IMG/VR virus record: IMGVR_UViG_3300044712_000815
Span: 95,265-159,264 of that record
Source: a virus
Direction: 5' to 3' (one strand)
DNA: 64,000 nucleotides
Positions 3,392 through 11,072 of the stretch are shown here, piece after piece. Every line of letters begins with the position of its first letter. Within the stretch, counting starts at the first letter, position 1. A program made the translations under genes and the position numbers. The notes under the pieces were generated by a model. That model did not search any database. It worked only from the letters and a program-made list of their open reading frames with translations, and was not told the DNA's origin.

Positions 3392-3925
3392 ATGGCAGAA
3401 AAACAACCAGAAAAAAAAGAAAAAGTAGAAGAATTTATATTAACAACGGAATTAATAAAAGAAATAGAAGAAAAAGAAAATTTAGGAAAAATTTTAAAAC
3501 GATATGAAAAATTGTGGTTTTCAAATTTAAGGGGAATTCGAAAATCAAATTTAACATTTGCTATGACAGATGATGAATGGTTAGAATATATCAAATGTAA
3601 AATAAATATTCATTATTTCGCTGAAAATTATTGCCAAATTAAACGAGAAGATGGTACAATCGGACCAATGAAACTTCGAGATTATCAAAAAGATATTATT
3701 GATCTATATACTAAAAATCCACGAAGCATATTAATGGCATCAAGACAAACTGGAAAATGCAACTATTTCAATATCAACGTGTTAGTTAAAAATAATAATG
3801 GACAAGAATATAATATTTGTGTTGGGGAACTATATTATACTGAATTAAAGAAAGATAGAAAATTAACAATTTTAGAAAATTTAAAAATATTTTTATATAG
3901 AATATTAAATAAATTAGATAATTAA
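3392..3925 (+). CDS. Large terminase, N-terminal extein fused to split-intein N half
   Basis: 177 residues. Residues 1-122 are the start of a gp17-like packaging ATPase: YCQIKREDGTIGPMKLRDYQ is the adenine-binding Q-motif region, and SILMASRQTGK (112-122) is the Walker A loop cut exactly after its Lys. Residue 123 is Cys, the first residue of an intein; CNYFNINVLVKNNNGQEYNI fits intein block A. The 55-residue intein half ends in a hydrophobic helix (TILENLKIFLYRILNKL). The rest of Walker A (Thr) and of the terminase is encoded at 5400-7133. Protein trans-splicing would rebuild a terminase of about 699 residues. The normal stop and the intervening endonuclease gene argue against a sequencing error. 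Confidence 0.85.
   Translation: MAEKQPEKKEKVEEFILTTELIKEIEEKENLGKILKRYEKLWFSNLRGIRKSNLTFAMTDDEWLEYIKCKINIHYFAENYCQIKREDGTIGPMKLRDYQKDIIDLYTKNPRSILMASRQTGKCNYFNINVLVKNNNGQEYNICVGELYYTELKKDRKLTILENLKIFLYRILNKLDN
3758..3922 (+). other. Split intein, N-terminal half (IntN)
   Basis: Codes 55 intein residues beginning with the nucleophile Cys (TGC at 3758-3760) straight after the Walker A Lys codon. Only block A is present here; block B lies in the other half, so the split point is far upstream of that of most known split inteins. This layout resembles the short-IntN terminase inteins of the AceL-TerL type. Confidence 0.8.
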
Positions 3926-3986
3926 TTCTCTTTCCGCTTTGGCGAAAAGCCATAAAAAATAATTAATATATAGAAATAAAAATATT

Positions 3987-4946
3987 ATGGAAGAAGATTA
4001 TATAGAATGTAAAATTTGTGGATTTAAATCAAAAAGAATTTATGGTCGTCATTTGAAATCACATGGATTAACATCAAAAGAATATAAGGAAATGTATCCA
4101 GATGCATTGTTATATGCAGATTGTGATTATAAAAACACATCTAAAAATAGTGGATTGCATATGAAAACTGAAAAATATAAAAAAATATTTTCTGAAAAAA
4201 TAAAAGGTGAAAAAAACCCAAATCATAAATCTAATACAACAATAGAAAAACGACAAAAATGTTCACCATTTTCTAAAGAATTTAAAAATTATTCAGATGA
4301 TAAAGAACGAACAGTATTTATAAAAAATATATGTAATAATAAATCATATCAAGTAAGATTAAATTATTGGTTAAATAAAGGATTTAATGAAATTGATGCT
4401 GAATTAAAATTGAAAGAAAGACAATCCACATTTTCATTAGATATATGTATTAATAAATATGGTGATGAAAAAGGAACCGAAATATATAATAGTAGACAAC
4501 AAAAATGGCAAAAATCTTTAGTGGAAAATGGCAACTTGAAATGTGGATATTCTATGATATCGCAAGAATTGTTTTTTATTATATTAGAAAAATATAAATT
4601 TGAAAATAGAAAAAAAATATATTTTGCAACAAAAAACCAAGAATATTTTATTTGTAAAGGAAAAAGTGAATTTTATCAATTTGATTTTGTTGATTTGGAA
4701 AATAAAAAAATAATAGAATATAATGGTGATAAATATCATGCAAATCCAAAATTGTATGAAGCTACTGATCATCCCCACCCATTCAGAAAATGGATAACTG
4801 CACAAGAAATTTGGGATAAAGACAAACGAAAAGAATTAGTTGCGAATGATGAAGGATTTCAAGTTTTAACAATTTGGGATTCTGAATATAAAAAAAATAA
4901 ACAAGCTACATTAGAAAAATGCTTAATATTTTTAGATAAAAAATAA
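3987..4946 (+). CDS. Free-standing homing endonuclease, Vsr-like (EDxHD) type
   Basis: 319 residues, in the gap between the two split-intein halves. The N-terminus ECKICGFKSKRIYGRHLKSH is a CxxC...HxxxH zinc-finger-like module of the MucR type followed by LTSKEYKEMYP. A Lys/Asn-rich middle (GEKNPNH) resembles a NUMOD DNA-binding motif. The C-terminal ~100 residues look like a Vsr/PD-(D/E)XK nuclease: FDFVDLENKKIIEYNGDKYH, then IWDKDKRKELVANDEGF and VLTIWDSEY. Stand-alone nucleases of this family are known between halves of fractured, split-intein genes, where they are thought to spread the whole interrupted allele. It starts 61 bases after the IntN stop and ends 9 bases before the IntC gene. 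Confidence 0.8.
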   Translation: MEEDYIECKICGFKSKRIYGRHLKSHGLTSKEYKEMYPDALLYADCDYKNTSKNSGLHMKTEKYKKIFSEKIKGEKNPNHKSNTTIEKRQKCSPFSKEFKNYSDDKERTVFIKNICNNKSYQVRLNYWLNKGFNEIDAELKLKERQSTFSLDICINKYGDEKGTEIYNSRQQKWQKSLVENGNLKCGYSMISQELFFIILEKYKFENRKKIYFATKNQEYFICKGKSEFYQFDFVDLENKKIIEYNGDKYHANPKLYEATDHPHPFRKWITAQEIWDKDKRKELVANDEGFQVLTIWDSEYKKNKQATLEKCLIFLDKK

Positions 4947-4955
4947 TTTATTTAT

Positions 4956-5399
4956 ATGTTAAAAAACTATTTGAAAAATATAATATACTTCTTAATTCAA
5001 TTAATAGAAAAATATGAATTTAGACATTTCGATCCTAATGAAGATGATATAATGAAAAAATTTGTAAATACTATATTTTTAGAAAATGAAATATTAGTTG
5101 AAACTGATTATGGATTCGTTCCTGTGACAGAACTAAATATTACTCAACCATTTCAACGATATAAATTAGAATTAGAAAATGGAATATGGTTTGAAGGTGC
5201 TGACACACATACAATATTTACTAAAGATCATATTCAAAAAGCATTAATAGATTTAACAACAGATGATTTTGTTATAACTAAGTATGGATTAAGCAAAGTT
5301 AAATTAATAAAAAAAATGTACGGAAAGGTTAGTATGTTTGATTTATCCATCAATACACCTGAAATGAGTTATTATACAAATGATATATTGAGTCACAAC
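4956..5399 (+). other. Split intein, C-terminal half (IntC)
   Basis: Encodes 148 residues ending SHN, with the extein resuming at ACA (Thr) at 5400-5402. The segment DLSINTPEMSYYTNDILSHN has the spacing of intein blocks F and G. It also carries block B, unlike the C halves of canonical split inteins. Confidence 0.8.
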
Positions 5400-7133
5400 A
5401 CAGTGAGTGCTGCCATTGTTATTTTACATTTTGTTTTATTTAATGATGATAAGGGTTGTATGATCGTAGCAAATAAAGGTAAAACTGTAAAAGAAATTAT
5501 TAGAAAAATTAAAGATATTTATAAATTATTACCATTTTTCTTAAAAAAAGGTGTTGTAAACTGGAATGAAACTCAAATTGCATTTGAAAATAATTCTCGT
5601 ATCCAAACAGAAAACAGAACAAAAGACCCATCAATTGGTTTTACAATTGACCTACTATATCTTGATGAATTTGCACATATTCCAGATAATTTTATAAGGG
5701 AATATTATGGTGCGATAGTACCTGTTGTATCTTCTATATCCAATTCTAGGATAATAATAACATCAACCCCGTGTGGATATAATATGTTTTGGGAACTGAT
5801 AACTGCGGCAGAATTGCCTGATGATGATCCAAATAAAAGTCCATATAAAGCGATGCGAGTTCTTTGGACACAAGTACCTGGACGAGAAGATACAAATATA
5901 AAAATTATAGATGCTAAATTAAAGAAATTTAGTATATCTAAATCTCAAGTATTAAAGGATATAAGGGAAAAATATGATATAACATTATATAAAAAACACG
6001 TTGGGGATGACATTATAGATTGTGTTAAGTATGATGTAAAAGATGAAAAAACATATATTGATAATATACGAAAAATTAGAATAAATGGAATTCCTCTTCC
6101 TGAATTGGCAATAATTAACAATTGGCAAGAAGAAGAAACAAAATTGTTGGGTTCACCTGAAATTTTTGATCAGGAATATGGATTACATTTTGTGACAGGT
6201 GATAAAATTTTATTTGGTAAAGAAATAATAGATTTATTAAAAAGTCAACAAACACAATTTGATTATATGGAACTACCCGCATTTGGAAAATTGCCATTTC
6301 CATATGATTCTATGAAATGGATAAGAAATTTGAATCTTTTTAATCCACTTAAAGTAAAAGATTATTATATATTGATATCTATTGATTTGGCTGAAGGATT
6401 AGCAAAAGATTATTCGGTTATAAATATATTTAGATTGATGTTAAGAGATAAAGAAGAAATTGAAAAGTACAAATATGAAAATTTGTATGATTTATTTAAA
6501 CTTGAACAAATTGGATTATATCGTAATAATGTATATTCAATTAAGGAAATTGCACATATACTATATTGTATAGCATTTGAATTATTTGATCCAGAAAAAA
6601 TTAAAGTTAATTTAGAATATAATATGTTTGGTGGTGAATTTTTAACCCAATTACCACAAGTATTTAATGGTGAAAATAATTATTCAAATTCAATATTTTT
6701 AAGATATAAACATAATCGAGAAGATGTTGGTGCAAGAATAGGCTTGAAATTAAACAAAGATAAACATTTGATTATAGATAAAGAATTTCAACAAGCTATT
6801 AAGCAAAGAAAAATGATACTACATCATGAACTAAATATAAAAGAAATTACAACATTCAGCAAACACGAAACAGCAGCAGGTAATGTAACTTATAGGGCAG
6901 AAAGTGGTAATGATGATGTCGTTATGACTACAATAACATTATCTTGTTGTTTTGATAATATTGGTTATAAAAATCTTATTGATATGTATGTTAATTGTAA
7001 TTTACAAGGTGATGTGTTAAGATATATAGAAACAATCACAAATAAATCTAATAATGCTGAAAATATGATTGGTGCATATAATAGAATATATCGAAGAAGA
7101 CCAGAAATGTATAATTCTAGATATCCTAGATAA
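4956..7133 (+). CDS. Large terminase, split-intein C half fused to C-terminal extein
   Basis: 725 residues. Residues 1-148 are the intein C half: the block-B-like GADTHTIFTKDHI (about 81-93), the block F region MFDLSINTPEMSYY (127-140), and TNDILSHN ending in the catalytic His-Asn at 147-148. Residue 149 is Thr, which serves as the +1 nucleophile and as the missing Thr of Walker A. The extein (149-725) has Walker B (LLYLDEFAHIP), a coupling motif (IITSTPCG) and the RNase H-like packaging nuclease (LISIDLAEGLAKDYSVINIF, then NLEYNMFGGEF, then GNDDVVMT). A later start at Met33 (5052) would remove a hydrophobic extension and give a more standard IntC. The gene overlaps the convergent gene by 8 bases. 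Confidence 0.85.
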   Translation: MLKNYLKNIIYFLIQLIEKYEFRHFDPNEDDIMKKFVNTIFLENEILVETDYGFVPVTELNITQPFQRYKLELENGIWFEGADTHTIFTKDHIQKALIDLTTDDFVITKYGLSKVKLIKKMYGKVSMFDLSINTPEMSYYTNDILSHNTVSAAIVILHFVLFNDDKGCMIVANKGKTVKEIIRKIKDIYKLLPFFLKKGVVNWNETQIAFENNSRIQTENRTKDPSIGFTIDLLYLDEFAHIPDNFIREYYGAIVPVVSSISNSRIIITSTPCGYNMFWELITAAELPDDDPNKSPYKAMRVLWTQVPGREDTNIKIIDAKLKKFSISKSQVLKDIREKYDITLYKKHVGDDIIDCVKYDVKDEKTYIDNIRKIRINGIPLPELAIINNWQEEETKLLGSPEIFDQEYGLHFVTGDKILFGKEIIDLLKSQQTQFDYMELPAFGKLPFPYDSMKWIRNLNLFNPLKVKDYYILISIDLAEGLAKDYSVINIFRLMLRDKEEIEKYKYENLYDLFKLEQIGLYRNNVYSIKEIAHILYCIAFELFDPEKIKVNLEYNMFGGEFLTQLPQVFNGENNYSNSIFLRYKHNREDVGARIGLKLNKDKHLIIDKEFQQAIKQRKMILHHELNIKEITTFSKHETAAGNVTYRAESGNDDVVMTTITLSCCFDNIGYKNLIDMYVNCNLQGDVLRYIETITNKSNNAENMIGAYNRIYRRRPEMYNSRYPR

Positions 7134-7836: not shown

Positions 7837-8013
7837 ATGAAAGATGTAAATAAAAAAATCGTAGTGTCAATTTCATTAGAACCAGAACTATTGAAACTTG
7901 TGAATGATACAGTTTCAAATAGATCGAAATTCCTGGAAAATTGTATCATATCAGAATTATGCAAATCCGAAGATATCAAATCTGAACTAAAAAAGAAATT
8001 TATTATTTTATGA
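7837..8013 (+). CDS. Ribbon-helix-helix regulator coupled to a homing endonuclease
   Basis: 58 residues: KKIVVSISLEPELLKLVNDT then NRSKFLENCIISEL, a beta strand plus two helices with the typical strand pattern and Pro turn. The start at 7837 is preferred over the in-frame upstream ATG at 7792, because the RHH strand then begins near residue 7. Its stop overlaps the start of the GIY-YIG gene (ATGA at 8010-8013), so the repressor and nuclease are translationally coupled. A TATATATAA box lies about 20 bases upstream. Confidence 0.65.
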   Translation: MKDVNKKIVVSISLEPELLKLVNDTVSNRSKFLENCIISELCKSEDIKSELKKKFIIL

Positions 8014-9158
8014 AATGGACTTTAGAAAAACTTCAAGAAGAAGCTGATAAATATTTGACTCGTGGTGAATTTCAAAAAAACTGTTCAGGTGCATATACAT
8101 TTGCAAGAATACACAATTTATTGGATATATTATTTGACAAACACAAATATAATGGATATTACAATAATAATAAACCTAAAGGGTATTGGACATTAGAAAG
8201 ACTTCAAGAAGTAGCAAATAAATGTAAAACTAGAATGGAATTAAAACAAAATTTTTGTGGTGCATATTCTAATGCTGTAAAATCAAAATTGTTGGATTTT
8301 TTGTTTAAAAATCATAAAAATAATGGATATCTTAATGATGATGGTTGGATTAAAAATAATTATGTTATATATGTATATGAATTAGAAAAATTCAATATCG
8401 CATATGTTGGATTAACAAATAATATAAATCGAAGAGATAAAGAACATTTATTTAATCCAAATGAAAAACTTAGTCAATTTTGTAAAGATCAAAATGTATC
8501 CTATCCTGAATATAAAATACTAGAAATTGGATTAAATTCATATACAGTAAGAAATAGAGAATTGTTTTGGTTAAATTATTATAAAAATGATGGTTGGATA
8601 ATGTATAATATCGCAAAAACTGGGTCATTGGGAAATGTTGAAAAATATTCAAAATCAAAATTACAAAAAGAAGTAAATAAATATAAAACTAGATTGGAAT
8701 TTAGTATAAATAATATAAATATGTATAATTGTGCAAAAAATAGAAAATTACTTGATAATTTATTTAAAACCCATTATAATAGTGGATTTACTGAAGACAA
8801 ATGGACTTTTGAAATATTACAAATAGAAGCAAATAAATATGATACAAGAAATGAATTTTTTAATAATAATTATAATGCCTATCATGCTGCTAGAGATAAA
8901 AAACTAATTTCAGAATTATTTAAAAATCACAAAAATAATGGATATATAAAACAAAAAAATGTAAATATTCCTTATACATTTTGGTCAAAACATAAATTGC
9001 AAGAAGAATGTGACAAATACTTAACAAGATTAGAATTTAAAAAAAATAATAAAGCTGCATATAGTGCAGCATTAAGATATAAAATATTAGATGAATTATT
9101 CAAAAATCATAAAAATAATGGTTATATAAATAAAATAAACCCAAAAACCATCAAATGA
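8010..9158 (+). CDS. GIY-YIG homing endonuclease with repeated DNA-binding modules
   Basis: 382 residues. The nuclease core lies at about 118-210: YVIYVYELEKFNIAYVGLTN (a GIY-YIG variant), then NINRRDKEH and the Glu-bearing NRELFWLNYYK. It is flanked by five ~48-residue repeats of the form W(T/S)xxKLQEExxKYxTRxEF...AYxxAxxxKLLDxLFKNHKNNGY, two before the core and three after it. They look like small helical DNA-binding modules, a common way for GIY-YIG nucleases to gain target length. A strong terminator overlaps the 3' end. A similar isolated repeat occurs at 33228-33389. Confidence 0.75.
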   Translation: MKWTLEKLQEEADKYLTRGEFQKNCSGAYTFARIHNLLDILFDKHKYNGYYNNNKPKGYWTLERLQEVANKCKTRMELKQNFCGAYSNAVKSKLLDFLFKNHKNNGYLNDDGWIKNNYVIYVYELEKFNIAYVGLTNNINRRDKEHLFNPNEKLSQFCKDQNVSYPEYKILEIGLNSYTVRNRELFWLNYYKNDGWIMYNIAKTGSLGNVEKYSKSKLQKEVNKYKTRLEFSINNINMYNCAKNRKLLDNLFKTHYNSGFTEDKWTFEILQIEANKYDTRNEFFNNNYNAYHAARDKKLISELFKNHKNNGYIKQKNVNIPYTFWSKHKLQEECDKYLTRLEFKKNNKAAYSAALRYKILDELFKNHKNNGYINKINPKTIK

Positions 9159-9191: not shown

Positions 9192-11072
9192 TCATTTTAC
9201 TTCTTCAAATTCTACATCGGTCACATCATCATTTTTTGATTGTGTCGATTCATTTTGGCAATTTTGATTACTTTGTTCACTTTGTTCACTTTGGCTGTAA
9301 ATTTTGGTGCTGATGTTATTCCACACATCAGTTAAACTTTTCGTATATTTTTCAACATCTACTAAGTTTTGTGCTTTATGCGATTCTTTCAATTTATTTA
9401 ATTCGGCATTTAATTCTGATTTATCAGTTTCTGTCAATTTTTCACCAAATTCTGTAATCTGTTTTTCTGTTTGAAAAATCAAAGAATCAGCTTGGTTTAA
9501 AGTATCAATTTTTTCTTTTTCTTTTTTATCAGATTCAGCATTTTCTTTTGCTTCCATTTTCATTTTTTCAATTTCATCTTTAGTAAGAGCTGTCGAACCT
9601 TCAATTCTAATTTTGTTTTCTTTATTTGTTGCTTTATCTTTTGCTTTTACTGTTAATATAGAATTCGCATCCAAACTAAATTCAACTTCTATTTGAGGAA
9701 CCCCACGCATAGCAGGCAAAATTCCGTCTAAATTAAAGGTTCCAAGATGTTTATTGTCCTTAAACATAGGTCTTTCCCCAGTTGCAATATTAATCTGAAC
9801 CCCAGGTTGGTTGTCTTGTGCCGTTGAAAAAATTTGGGTTTTACTTACAGGAATTGTTGTATTTGCTTCAATCATCACCTGAAAAAGTTGCCCTTGAACT
9901 TCAATCCCAAATGGAAGTGCAGTCACATCAAGTAATAAAATATCTGATGTTTCCCCTGCAATAATAGATCCCTGAATACAAGCACCTTGTGATATAGCGG
10001 TATCTGCATTTAAACTTCTGTTTGCTTTTTTACCAAAAAATTTTTCAACGCTTTCAACCAAATATGGAATTCTCGTGCTACCACCAACAAGCACAATGTC
10101 ATCAATATCCGATGCATTCTTTCCACTTTTCTTAAGTGATGATTTAATTAATTCCAAAGTTTTATCAATATAAAATTGAATTAATTGATTAAATTTAGCA
10201 ACATTTATAGTTTTAACTAAGTGTTTTGGAACATTATCAATTACTGTGATATATGGCAAATTTATTTCAGTTTGTGTTGTATTTGACAATTCGATTTTCG
10301 CTTTCTCCGATGATTCGGTCAATCGTTGTAATGCCATGGGATCAAGGCGAAGATCAACACCAAATTCTTTCTTAAAATCATCAGCAACATAATTGACTAT
10401 AGCTTCATCAATTAAATTTCCACCCAAATCCAATGAACCATCCGTTGCAATCACTTCAAAAATCCCATCATCTATATCCATGACAGAAAAATCCGAAGTG
10501 CATCCACCACTATCCACAATAAAATATAATTTACCTTTTTTATCTTTAATGTTTAGTGAAGCTGCTGTAGGTTCGGATATTATCCGGAGAACTTCAAGTC
10601 CAGCAATTTCACCAGCAACTTGGGTCGATTTTCTTTCATCGCTATTAAAGTACGCAGGAACAGTTATTATACATTGTTTAACTTCGAGTCCCAAATAATC
10701 TTCAGCAGTTTTTTTCATTTTTTGTAAGATCATTGCTGATATTTCTTCAGGTGAATATATTTTATCACCAATTTTAACTGCTGCTTTACCATTATTATCA
10801 ACAATATCATATGGTCGTTTAAGATGTTTTACATCATTATAACTACGACCCATCAATCTTTTAATATTAAAGATTGTGTTTTTTGGATTTAATGCTGCTT
10901 GTCTTTTTGCCGCATCTCCAACTTTAATTTCACCTGTTTTTGGATCAAAAGATACAATAGAAGATGTACTTGTTGATCCTTCTGAATTTGGTATAACAAT
11001 AGTTTGTCCACCTTCCATTACAGAAACCGTACTAAAATACGATCCCAAATCTATTCCGATTATTTTTCCCAT
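9192..11072 (-). CDS. dnaK: Hsp70 chaperone DnaK
   Basis: 626 residues, full length for DnaK, an ATP-driven cytoplasmic chaperone. The ATPase domain starts MGKIIGIDLG; NIKRLMGRSY holds the catalytic Lys, ISEPTAASLN the conserved Glu, and VLVGGSTRIPYLVESVE the adenosine loop. The substrate domain, a helical lid and the C-terminus DVTDVEFEEVK are present. Odd points: phosphate loop 1, normally GTTNS, is GSYFS, and loop 2, normally DLGGGTFD, is DSGGCTSD, so ATP handling may be altered. Full-length Hsp70 genes are rare in phages; capture from a Bacteroidota host is likely. Possible roles are virion protein folding or takeover of host chaperone functions. The gene stands alone between a terminator and small genes. 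Confidence 0.95.
   Translation of the reverse strand: MGKIIGIDLGSYFSTVSVMEGGQTIVIPNSEGSTSTSSIVSFDPKTGEIKVGDAAKRQAALNPKNTIFNIKRLMGRSYNDVKHLKRPYDIVDNNGKAAVKIGDKIYSPEEISAMILQKMKKTAEDYLGLEVKQCIITVPAYFNSDERKSTQVAGEIAGLEVLRIISEPTAASLNIKDKKGKLYFIVDSGGCTSDFSVMDIDDGIFEVIATDGSLDLGGNLIDEAIVNYVADDFKKEFGVDLRLDPMALQRLTESSEKAKIELSNTTQTEINLPYITVIDNVPKHLVKTINVAKFNQLIQFYIDKTLELIKSSLKKSGKNASDIDDIVLVGGSTRIPYLVESVEKFFGKKANRSLNADTAISQGACIQGSIIAGETSDILLLDVTALPFGIEVQGQLFQVMIEANTTIPVSKTQIFSTAQDNQPGVQINIATGERPMFKDNKHLGTFNLDGILPAMRGVPQIEVEFSLDANSILTVKAKDKATNKENKIRIEGSTALTKDEIEKMKMEAKENAESDKKEKEKIDTLNQADSLIFQTEKQITEFGEKLTETDKSELNAELNKLKESHKAQNLVDVEKYTKSLTDVWNNISTKIYSQSEQSEQSNQNCQNESTQSKNDDVTDVEFEEVK

Follow-up and report, generated by a model that had tools for sequence, protein, structure and literature searches.

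A phage terminase gene probably joined by protein trans-splicing of an atypically split intein, with a Vsr-like nuclease gene between its halves

Introduction

Dassa et al. 2009 reportedly described fractured genes, in which a split intein interrupts an essential phage gene and a free-standing nuclease gene lies between the halves. In atypically split inteins, N-terminal intein halves (IntN) of 15-37 residues have been reported, among them those of AceL-TerL, with an IntN of 25 residues, and GOS-TerL, with an IntN of 37 residues and the junction residues Ser1 and Cys+1 (PMC11766414). Contiguous inteins are known from mycobacteriophage TerL as well, and several of them splice in assays (PMC5050341). 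Here we analyse the terminase (TerL) locus of a large phage, a relative of huge phages, in 64,000 nt of the partial metagenomic record IMGVR_UViG_3300044712_000815, a 159-kb fragment; "the window" denotes this whole stretch. Judged by comparison with its relatives, this TerL is probably a fractured gene, joined by protein trans-splicing and spread by a free-standing homing nuclease of the Vsr fold, a reading to which we assign a probability of about 0.87. It is directly supported by the anatomy of the locus, by homology, by the folds modelled for an unsplit homologue and for the nuclease, by polymorphism at a single site, by selection, and by relatives in which the halves lie far apart.

Results

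The interruption falls exactly at GK^T of Walker A (a caret marks the insertion point), and the locus comprises the following features.

3392..3757, plus strand: TerL N-extein, 122 residues, ending with the first part of Walker A (reading frames; PHROG terminase matches).
3740..3757, plus strand: SRQTGK, the Walker A residues through the invariant Lys, directly followed by the intein insertion point (sequence; SRQTGK^TVSAAI in uninterrupted relatives).
3758..3922, plus strand: IntN, 55 residues, with Cys1 at 3758-3760, block A and then a C-terminal amphipathic helix (family alignment).
3987..4946, plus strand: free-standing nuclease of predicted Vsr fold, 319 residues (profile matches, AlphaFold2, Foldseek).
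4956..5399, plus strand: C-terminal intein half (IntC), 148 residues, with an N-terminal hydrophobic helix (about residues 1-22) and block B, ADTH (residues 82-85, nt 5199-5210) (profile matches, selection).
5385..5399, plus strand: ILSHN, the C-terminal splice motif with penultimate His and terminal Asn (sequence).
5400..7133, plus strand: TerL C-extein, 577 residues, from the Thr+1 that completes Walker A GKT to the stop codon at 7131-7133 (reading frames, TerL matches).

The first open reading frame (3392-3925, 177 residues) runs through ..MASRQTGK into Cys and stops 55 residues on, the amphipathic helix occupying IntN residues 34-55 (nt 3857-3922) directly before the TAA at 3923-3925. The third (4956-7133, 725 residues), downstream of the nuclease frame, opens with 148 residues ending in ..DILSHN, after which TVSAAIVILH follows from 5400. 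Joined, the terminase parts give 122 + 577 = 699 residues, and neither TerL half alone contains a complete P-loop. As in a T4-type terminase large subunit, both flanks match TerL families in register (Terminase_6N/PF03237, 9.4e-7; PHROG 5989 and 36964), the N-extein being ~70-87% identical to its IMG/VR relatives. The residues of a class 1 intein (C1, the block B His H85 of IntC, SHN and T+1) are present in the window and in most relatives. The break lies between blocks A and B, with a short IntN and with block B inside IntC, and the nuclease gene stands free between the split-intein halves of its host gene. The first-pass annotation of this DNA had described the same anatomy, from SRQTGK and the Cys that opens 55 residues, through the 319-residue nuclease gene, to SHN and the resumption at Thr, and every element lies where it had been placed; block B is indeed in the C half, which is the known atypical (S1) split type.

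We used family profiles to identify the two halves. The IntC profile matches the solved inteins gp41-1 (4e-9), CatC (4e-8) and VidaL (5e-8) in hmmsearch, and 26/30 members of the IntC family match Pfam Intein_splicing at E up to 0.1. CatC represents the consensus of AceL-TerL and GOS-TerL. IntN gave no match to a mixed cis-intein alignment; the window's IntN is identified through the family alignment with L155 (L and G numbers are our labels for relatives), a natural unsplit homologue that carries the element in one 192-residue frame. The IntC part of L155 is 79% identical to the IntC of the split allele L154, and the IntN family aligns with L155 residues 1-46 (hhalign, E 8e-6). The AlphaFold2 model of L155 was built from IntC rows only, a joint IntN and IntC alignment being unused for folding because its IntN rows were misplaced. 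This model, with a predicted local distance difference test score (pLDDT) of 83, has the Hint fold, as Foldseek aligns it to the VidaL, gp41-1, Cat and GyrA inteins with probability 1.00. In it, the last helix of IntN runs straight on into the first helix of IntC as one continuous helix of 36 residues, so the natural break falls within a helical linker; we know of no such linker at the break in AceL-type split inteins. Cys1 is invariant across all split alleles of the family, Thr+1 is found throughout the close family and is nearly invariant among all split alleles, and the C-terminal end is mostly SHN. The splice ends of IntC do vary, from SHN^T to SSQ^T in LR756500 (L036) and LNLN^T in LR756501 (L035).

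A scan with the C gene yielded 33 viral contigs, in which the state of each allele was read by re-mapping five parts of the query. At GK^T these relatives are empty, or carry the split intein with the nuclease, the split intein with other genes, the split intein with a remnant nuclease (L002, L015) or a broken one (L029), or an unrelated LAGLIDADG intein, which in L019 is contiguous, 344 residues long and starts with Ala. On the TerL tree one clade with support 100/100 holds a split (L006), an empty (L020) and the LAGLIDADG allele (L019), and at least 9 changes of state are needed over 24 rows. Wider scans recovered 80 distinct alleles with both flanks present; 51 of them are split, 29 uninterrupted, and their states changed at least 15 times over the TerL tree. 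The other genes found between the halves include an uncharacterised gene of 198 residues, one with a metalloprotease-like HEFSH motif, and others that match MTES_1575 weakly or DUF7487 significantly. Metalloprotease-like cargo genes with HExxH lie at L003 2443-3372, which has no Pfam match, and at L156 ~6000-7000; in L027 a tRNA gene (4438-4503, minus strand) between the halves adjoins a second nuclease-like gene. Single contigs show more elaborate arrangements. In L208 (4306-8870, one viral contig) TerL is distributed over three genes by two split inteins, the second at Walker B, and each split holds its own nuclease-like gene, one of them Vsr-like and the other, by our reading of the sequence, HNH-like. 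In L217 (3700-6200) an Ala1 LAGLIDADG intein apparently lies directly upstream of the split IntN at the same TerL site, a double insertion. A short TerL paralogue consisting of the ATPase part only is additionally encoded by two huge phages with split TerL, LR756501 (L049, 649-1821) and LR756500 (L036, 3333-4145); its Walker A (SRQMGIT, SRQMGIS) has lost the Lys, precisely at the position of the intein site.

The nuclease, which matches DUF559 at 0.0014, has an N-terminal region (residues 2-37) resembling a Ros/MucR zinc finger (ROS_MUCR 5.2e-6) and a C-terminal Vsr-like domain (about residues 190-315) in which D233, E244 and H251 are invariant in 22 sequences. Its AlphaFold2 model (pLDDT 83) is matched best by Vsr (1vsr/1cw0, probability 1.00) and I-Bth0305I (3r3p, probability 0.97) in Foldseek. 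Among loci found with the nuclease profile, 62/64 lie at split TerL and 2 (L214, L215) at a split replicative helicase, counts from a search seeded with TerL-associated nucleases and from partly redundant contigs. The helicase of L214 (3361-6182; also L215) is fractured at its own P-loop, reading GVGK^C..LLSHN^SHFL, with the Vsr-like nuclease between the halves.

Synonymous sites beside the insertion point differ between allele states. Ser-6 is encoded by AGY in 30/51 split against 4/29 uninterrupted alleles, and Arg-5 by a G-ending codon in 27/51 against 3/29 (Fisher p ~1e-4 for each). Over 11 independent tree pairs the codon trait tracks the split state by ~6.5:0.1 (Ser-6) and 6.9:0.5 (Arg-5), with a median sign-test p of 0.03; this footprint is exploratory because five codons were inspected after the fact. 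Homing with co-conversion of the donor's flanks would be consistent with it, as would a recoded nuclease target. The window's own allele retains the codons usual in empty alleles, TCA AGA.

Taken together, these comparisons suggest that the nuclease is likely the homing endonuclease of the split intein, and homing would fit the allele polymorphism, the decay of the nuclease in some carriers and the synonymous footprint. It is unlikely, we think, that the split intein is real and the nuclease serves instead in repair, packaging or interference. The nuclease is absent from 11 split alleles, and in Caulobacter phage Cr30 (L221, 796-3514) a homologous free-standing gene lies directly upstream of an intein-less TerL (SRQSAKS), as such a role would allow; Cr30 is possibly a nuclease-only form. 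The concentration of nuclease loci at split TerL, within the limits of that seeded search, and the homologues between the split-intein halves of the L214 helicase and of Aes123 PolB argue for the link to the intein, and its decay in some carriers agrees with a homing cycle.

Several relatives have TerL halves that are no longer neighbours. In LR756501 (735 kb) they are separated by ~12.4 kb that holds genes in both orientations, an order kept in two independent contigs: in G004 most of the intervening genes are 81-100% identical in protein to those of LR756501, and in G001, where the nuclease still adjoins the N half, the C gene is 74% identical over the portion of it that the stretch contains. 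In G003, seen in a single contig, the two halves are on opposite strands with ~24 kb between them, and in the isolate Vibrio phage VmeM-32 (KU160494.1; L051 1102-3216, L059 2948-3625) they are ~79 kb apart, again on opposite strands. At Walker B, the C half of VmeM-32 has another mini-intein, a contiguous one, which precedes a Cys. A second isolate, Delftia phage PhiW-14, is without the nuclease, and its N and C genes are parted by tandem stops and a terminator-like palindrome. A simple sequencing error in PhiW-14 is disfavoured by the tandem stops (TGATAA), the GC-rich palindrome and the new start preceded by GGAG. VmeM-32 and PhiW-14 both grow on their hosts; inteins go unmentioned in the publications that describe these two phages. 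Because the halves are up to tens of kb apart in some relatives, joining of the TerL halves is, on comparative grounds, almost certainly required to make virus.

Estimates of omega (NG86) are 0.08-0.19 for IntC, mostly 0.13-0.40 for IntN and 0.26-0.40 for the nuclease, values that are rough because many synonymous sites are near saturation; they indicate that purifying selection acts on both intein halves. We weigh here the idea that the halves are two stable subunits assembling unspliced, with vestigial intein parts, like phage genes that are cut by an endonuclease gene and still work as two peptides. A ribonucleotide reductase cut in this way is a precedent (PMC10448857), and the terminal residues are altered in some relatives (LNLN, SSQ). 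Selection on both intein halves speaks against vestigial parts, as do Cys1 and Thr+1, which are essentially invariant over ~50 alleles, and the P-loop itself, whose Lys and Thr would sit on different chains, each with intein sequence at its end. We consider this account very improbable.

The separated halves, the isolates and the selection on both intein halves make assembly error, a pseudogene and RNA splicing unlikely. That the split stems from faulty assembly or sequencing, or that this terL is a decayed copy, would be conceivable in a partial metagenomic contig with a few relatives whose nucleases are broken. The same split recurs in many independent contigs and in two isolates, and both its flanks and its intein halves are intact and under constraint. 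Three independent assemblies share the 12-kb separation in synteny, and a second TerL, looked for in G000, was not found there; we give this explanation hardly any credence. The least probable account is an RNA-level intron, known from phage terL (ICP1, PMC10448857), given that the intein halves encoded there are conserved and under selection, that the halves lie on opposite strands or 12-79 kb apart in relatives, and that Rfam searches of the window and six relatives found no group I or II intron.

Downstream of TerL the window encodes a 382-residue protein with repeated motifs and a GIY-YIG match too weak to reach the Pfam cut-off (8010-9158) and, by our reading of the sequence, a phage-encoded DnaK/Hsp70-like protein of 626 residues (9192-11072, minus strand).

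Discussion

We infer the splicing chemistry, the docking of helices, the cleavage of DNA and the homing as follows. A class 1, atypically split intein with short IntN and long IntC would sit between the Lys and the Thr of Walker A. Contact between the halves probably begins with the terminal helix of IntN and the initial helix of IntC, after which the Hint domain would fold. Cys1 would form a thioester, Thr+1 of the C-extein would take over the N-extein, and cyclisation of the Asn that ends SHN would free a TerL of 699 residues in which GKT is intact. The most likely target of the nuclease is intein-less terL, cut near GK^T; repair would then copy IntN, nuclease and IntC together.

A number of results weigh against this fractured-gene reading. 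With the window halves alone, Pfam and NCBIfam gave no significant intein match, the window IntN included, which is why the family profile was needed; the IntN profile also had no match among PDB sequences. In the L155 model, confidence is low over residues 1-27, and so it is for the IntN part of the Hint fold. The penultimate His is missing in some relatives (LNLN, SLN), the IntC of LR756500 ends in Gln, and IntN omega reaches 0.87 for the window against L002. The Foldseek E-values of the nuclease are only 0.006-0.06 despite the high probabilities, and a record of 159 kb leaves room for a second TerL elsewhere in the genome.

The profile search of 3758-3922 and 4956-5399 proposed in the first-pass annotation thus fails in Pfam for the halves alone and succeeds with family profiles (IntC against solved inteins, IntN against L155). 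Its split-intein reading is borne out by the matches of IntC to gp41-1, CatC and VidaL and the alignment of IntN with unsplit L155, its Vsr-like nuclease by the best Foldseek matches, and its suggestion that the phage depends on trans-splicing gains strong comparative support from separated halves, isolates and selection. Its three-gene unit holds as an arrangement in the window and not as an obligatory one. Among the carriers are some that no longer have the nuclease, some that have acquired other genes and some in which the halves are entirely apart, so trans-splicing appears to persist without the homing unit.

A further, tentative step, which we hold to be doubtful, is that in several huge-phage lineages including LR756501 the split TerL has become a fixed part of the phage and is no longer a homing element: with the nuclease gone and the halves in separate transcription units, trans-splicing would serve as a built-in checkpoint on both the timing and the amount of the packaging motor.

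One selfish element is seen at one codon position in many states (empty, split with or without nuclease, replaced by a rival intein, with its halves apart, or unsplit), and this allele series allows comparison of the stages between a homing element and an essential gene that is permanently trans-spliced. The packaging motor would come from two genes in some huge phages, apparently including the largest of the 2020 survey, whose largest genome is 735 kb and whose main text does not contain the word 'intein' (PMC7162821). Gene finding and terminase phylogenies that assume one intact gene can miss a split TerL. The family also adds dozens of natural split inteins to those known, their break being unusual in its helix tags. 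The isolates PhiW-14 and VmeM-32 allow a direct test of whether a virus depends on protein trans-splicing.

Among known systems, the locus is closest in its intein to AceL-TerL, GOS-TerL and Cat, with which it shares the TerL host, the break between blocks A and B and the short IntN with long IntC, its IntC being homologous to CatC (6dsl). Unlike AceL-TerL and GOS-TerL, it has an IntN of 55 residues and extra helices on both sides of the break. Its Thr+1 lies at GK^T, whereas GOS-TerL probably occupies another site, because Ser1 and Cys+1 are reported for it. In gene order (host N part and IntN, VSR endonuclease, IntC and host C part) and in its homologous nuclease it resembles the fractured PolB1 gene of Aes123 (Aeromonas phages; JN377899), of which the host is a DNA polymerase and the intein is cysteine-less, atypically split by engineering only (PMC11923092). 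In contrast to the fractured genes attributed to Dassa and colleagues, the family described here affects TerL at Walker A, with halves separated and the nuclease lost or replaced in several members. The cis mini-inteins in TerL of Ackermannviridae (Maynard, Cys110-Asn268; 2050H1) share the GK^T site and a homologous IntC region, and differ in being contiguous, 159 residues long and without endonuclease. The mycobacteriophage TerL1-a inteins are likewise inserted in the P-loop between Lys and Thr (PMC5050341), but they are cis inteins in a different terminase family. The nuclease resembles I-Bth0305I and Vsr endonucleases in the predicted fold of its C-terminal domain and departs from them in its N-terminal region, which resembles a Ros/MucR finger. 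We found no report of split terminases in huge phages in the open-access literature. Atypically split TerL inteins, a VSR nuclease between split-intein halves and GK^T as a P-loop intein site are already known; what appears to be new is their combination, its spread in huge phages, the long helix-tagged IntN, and the occurrence within one family of separated, three-part and unsplit forms.

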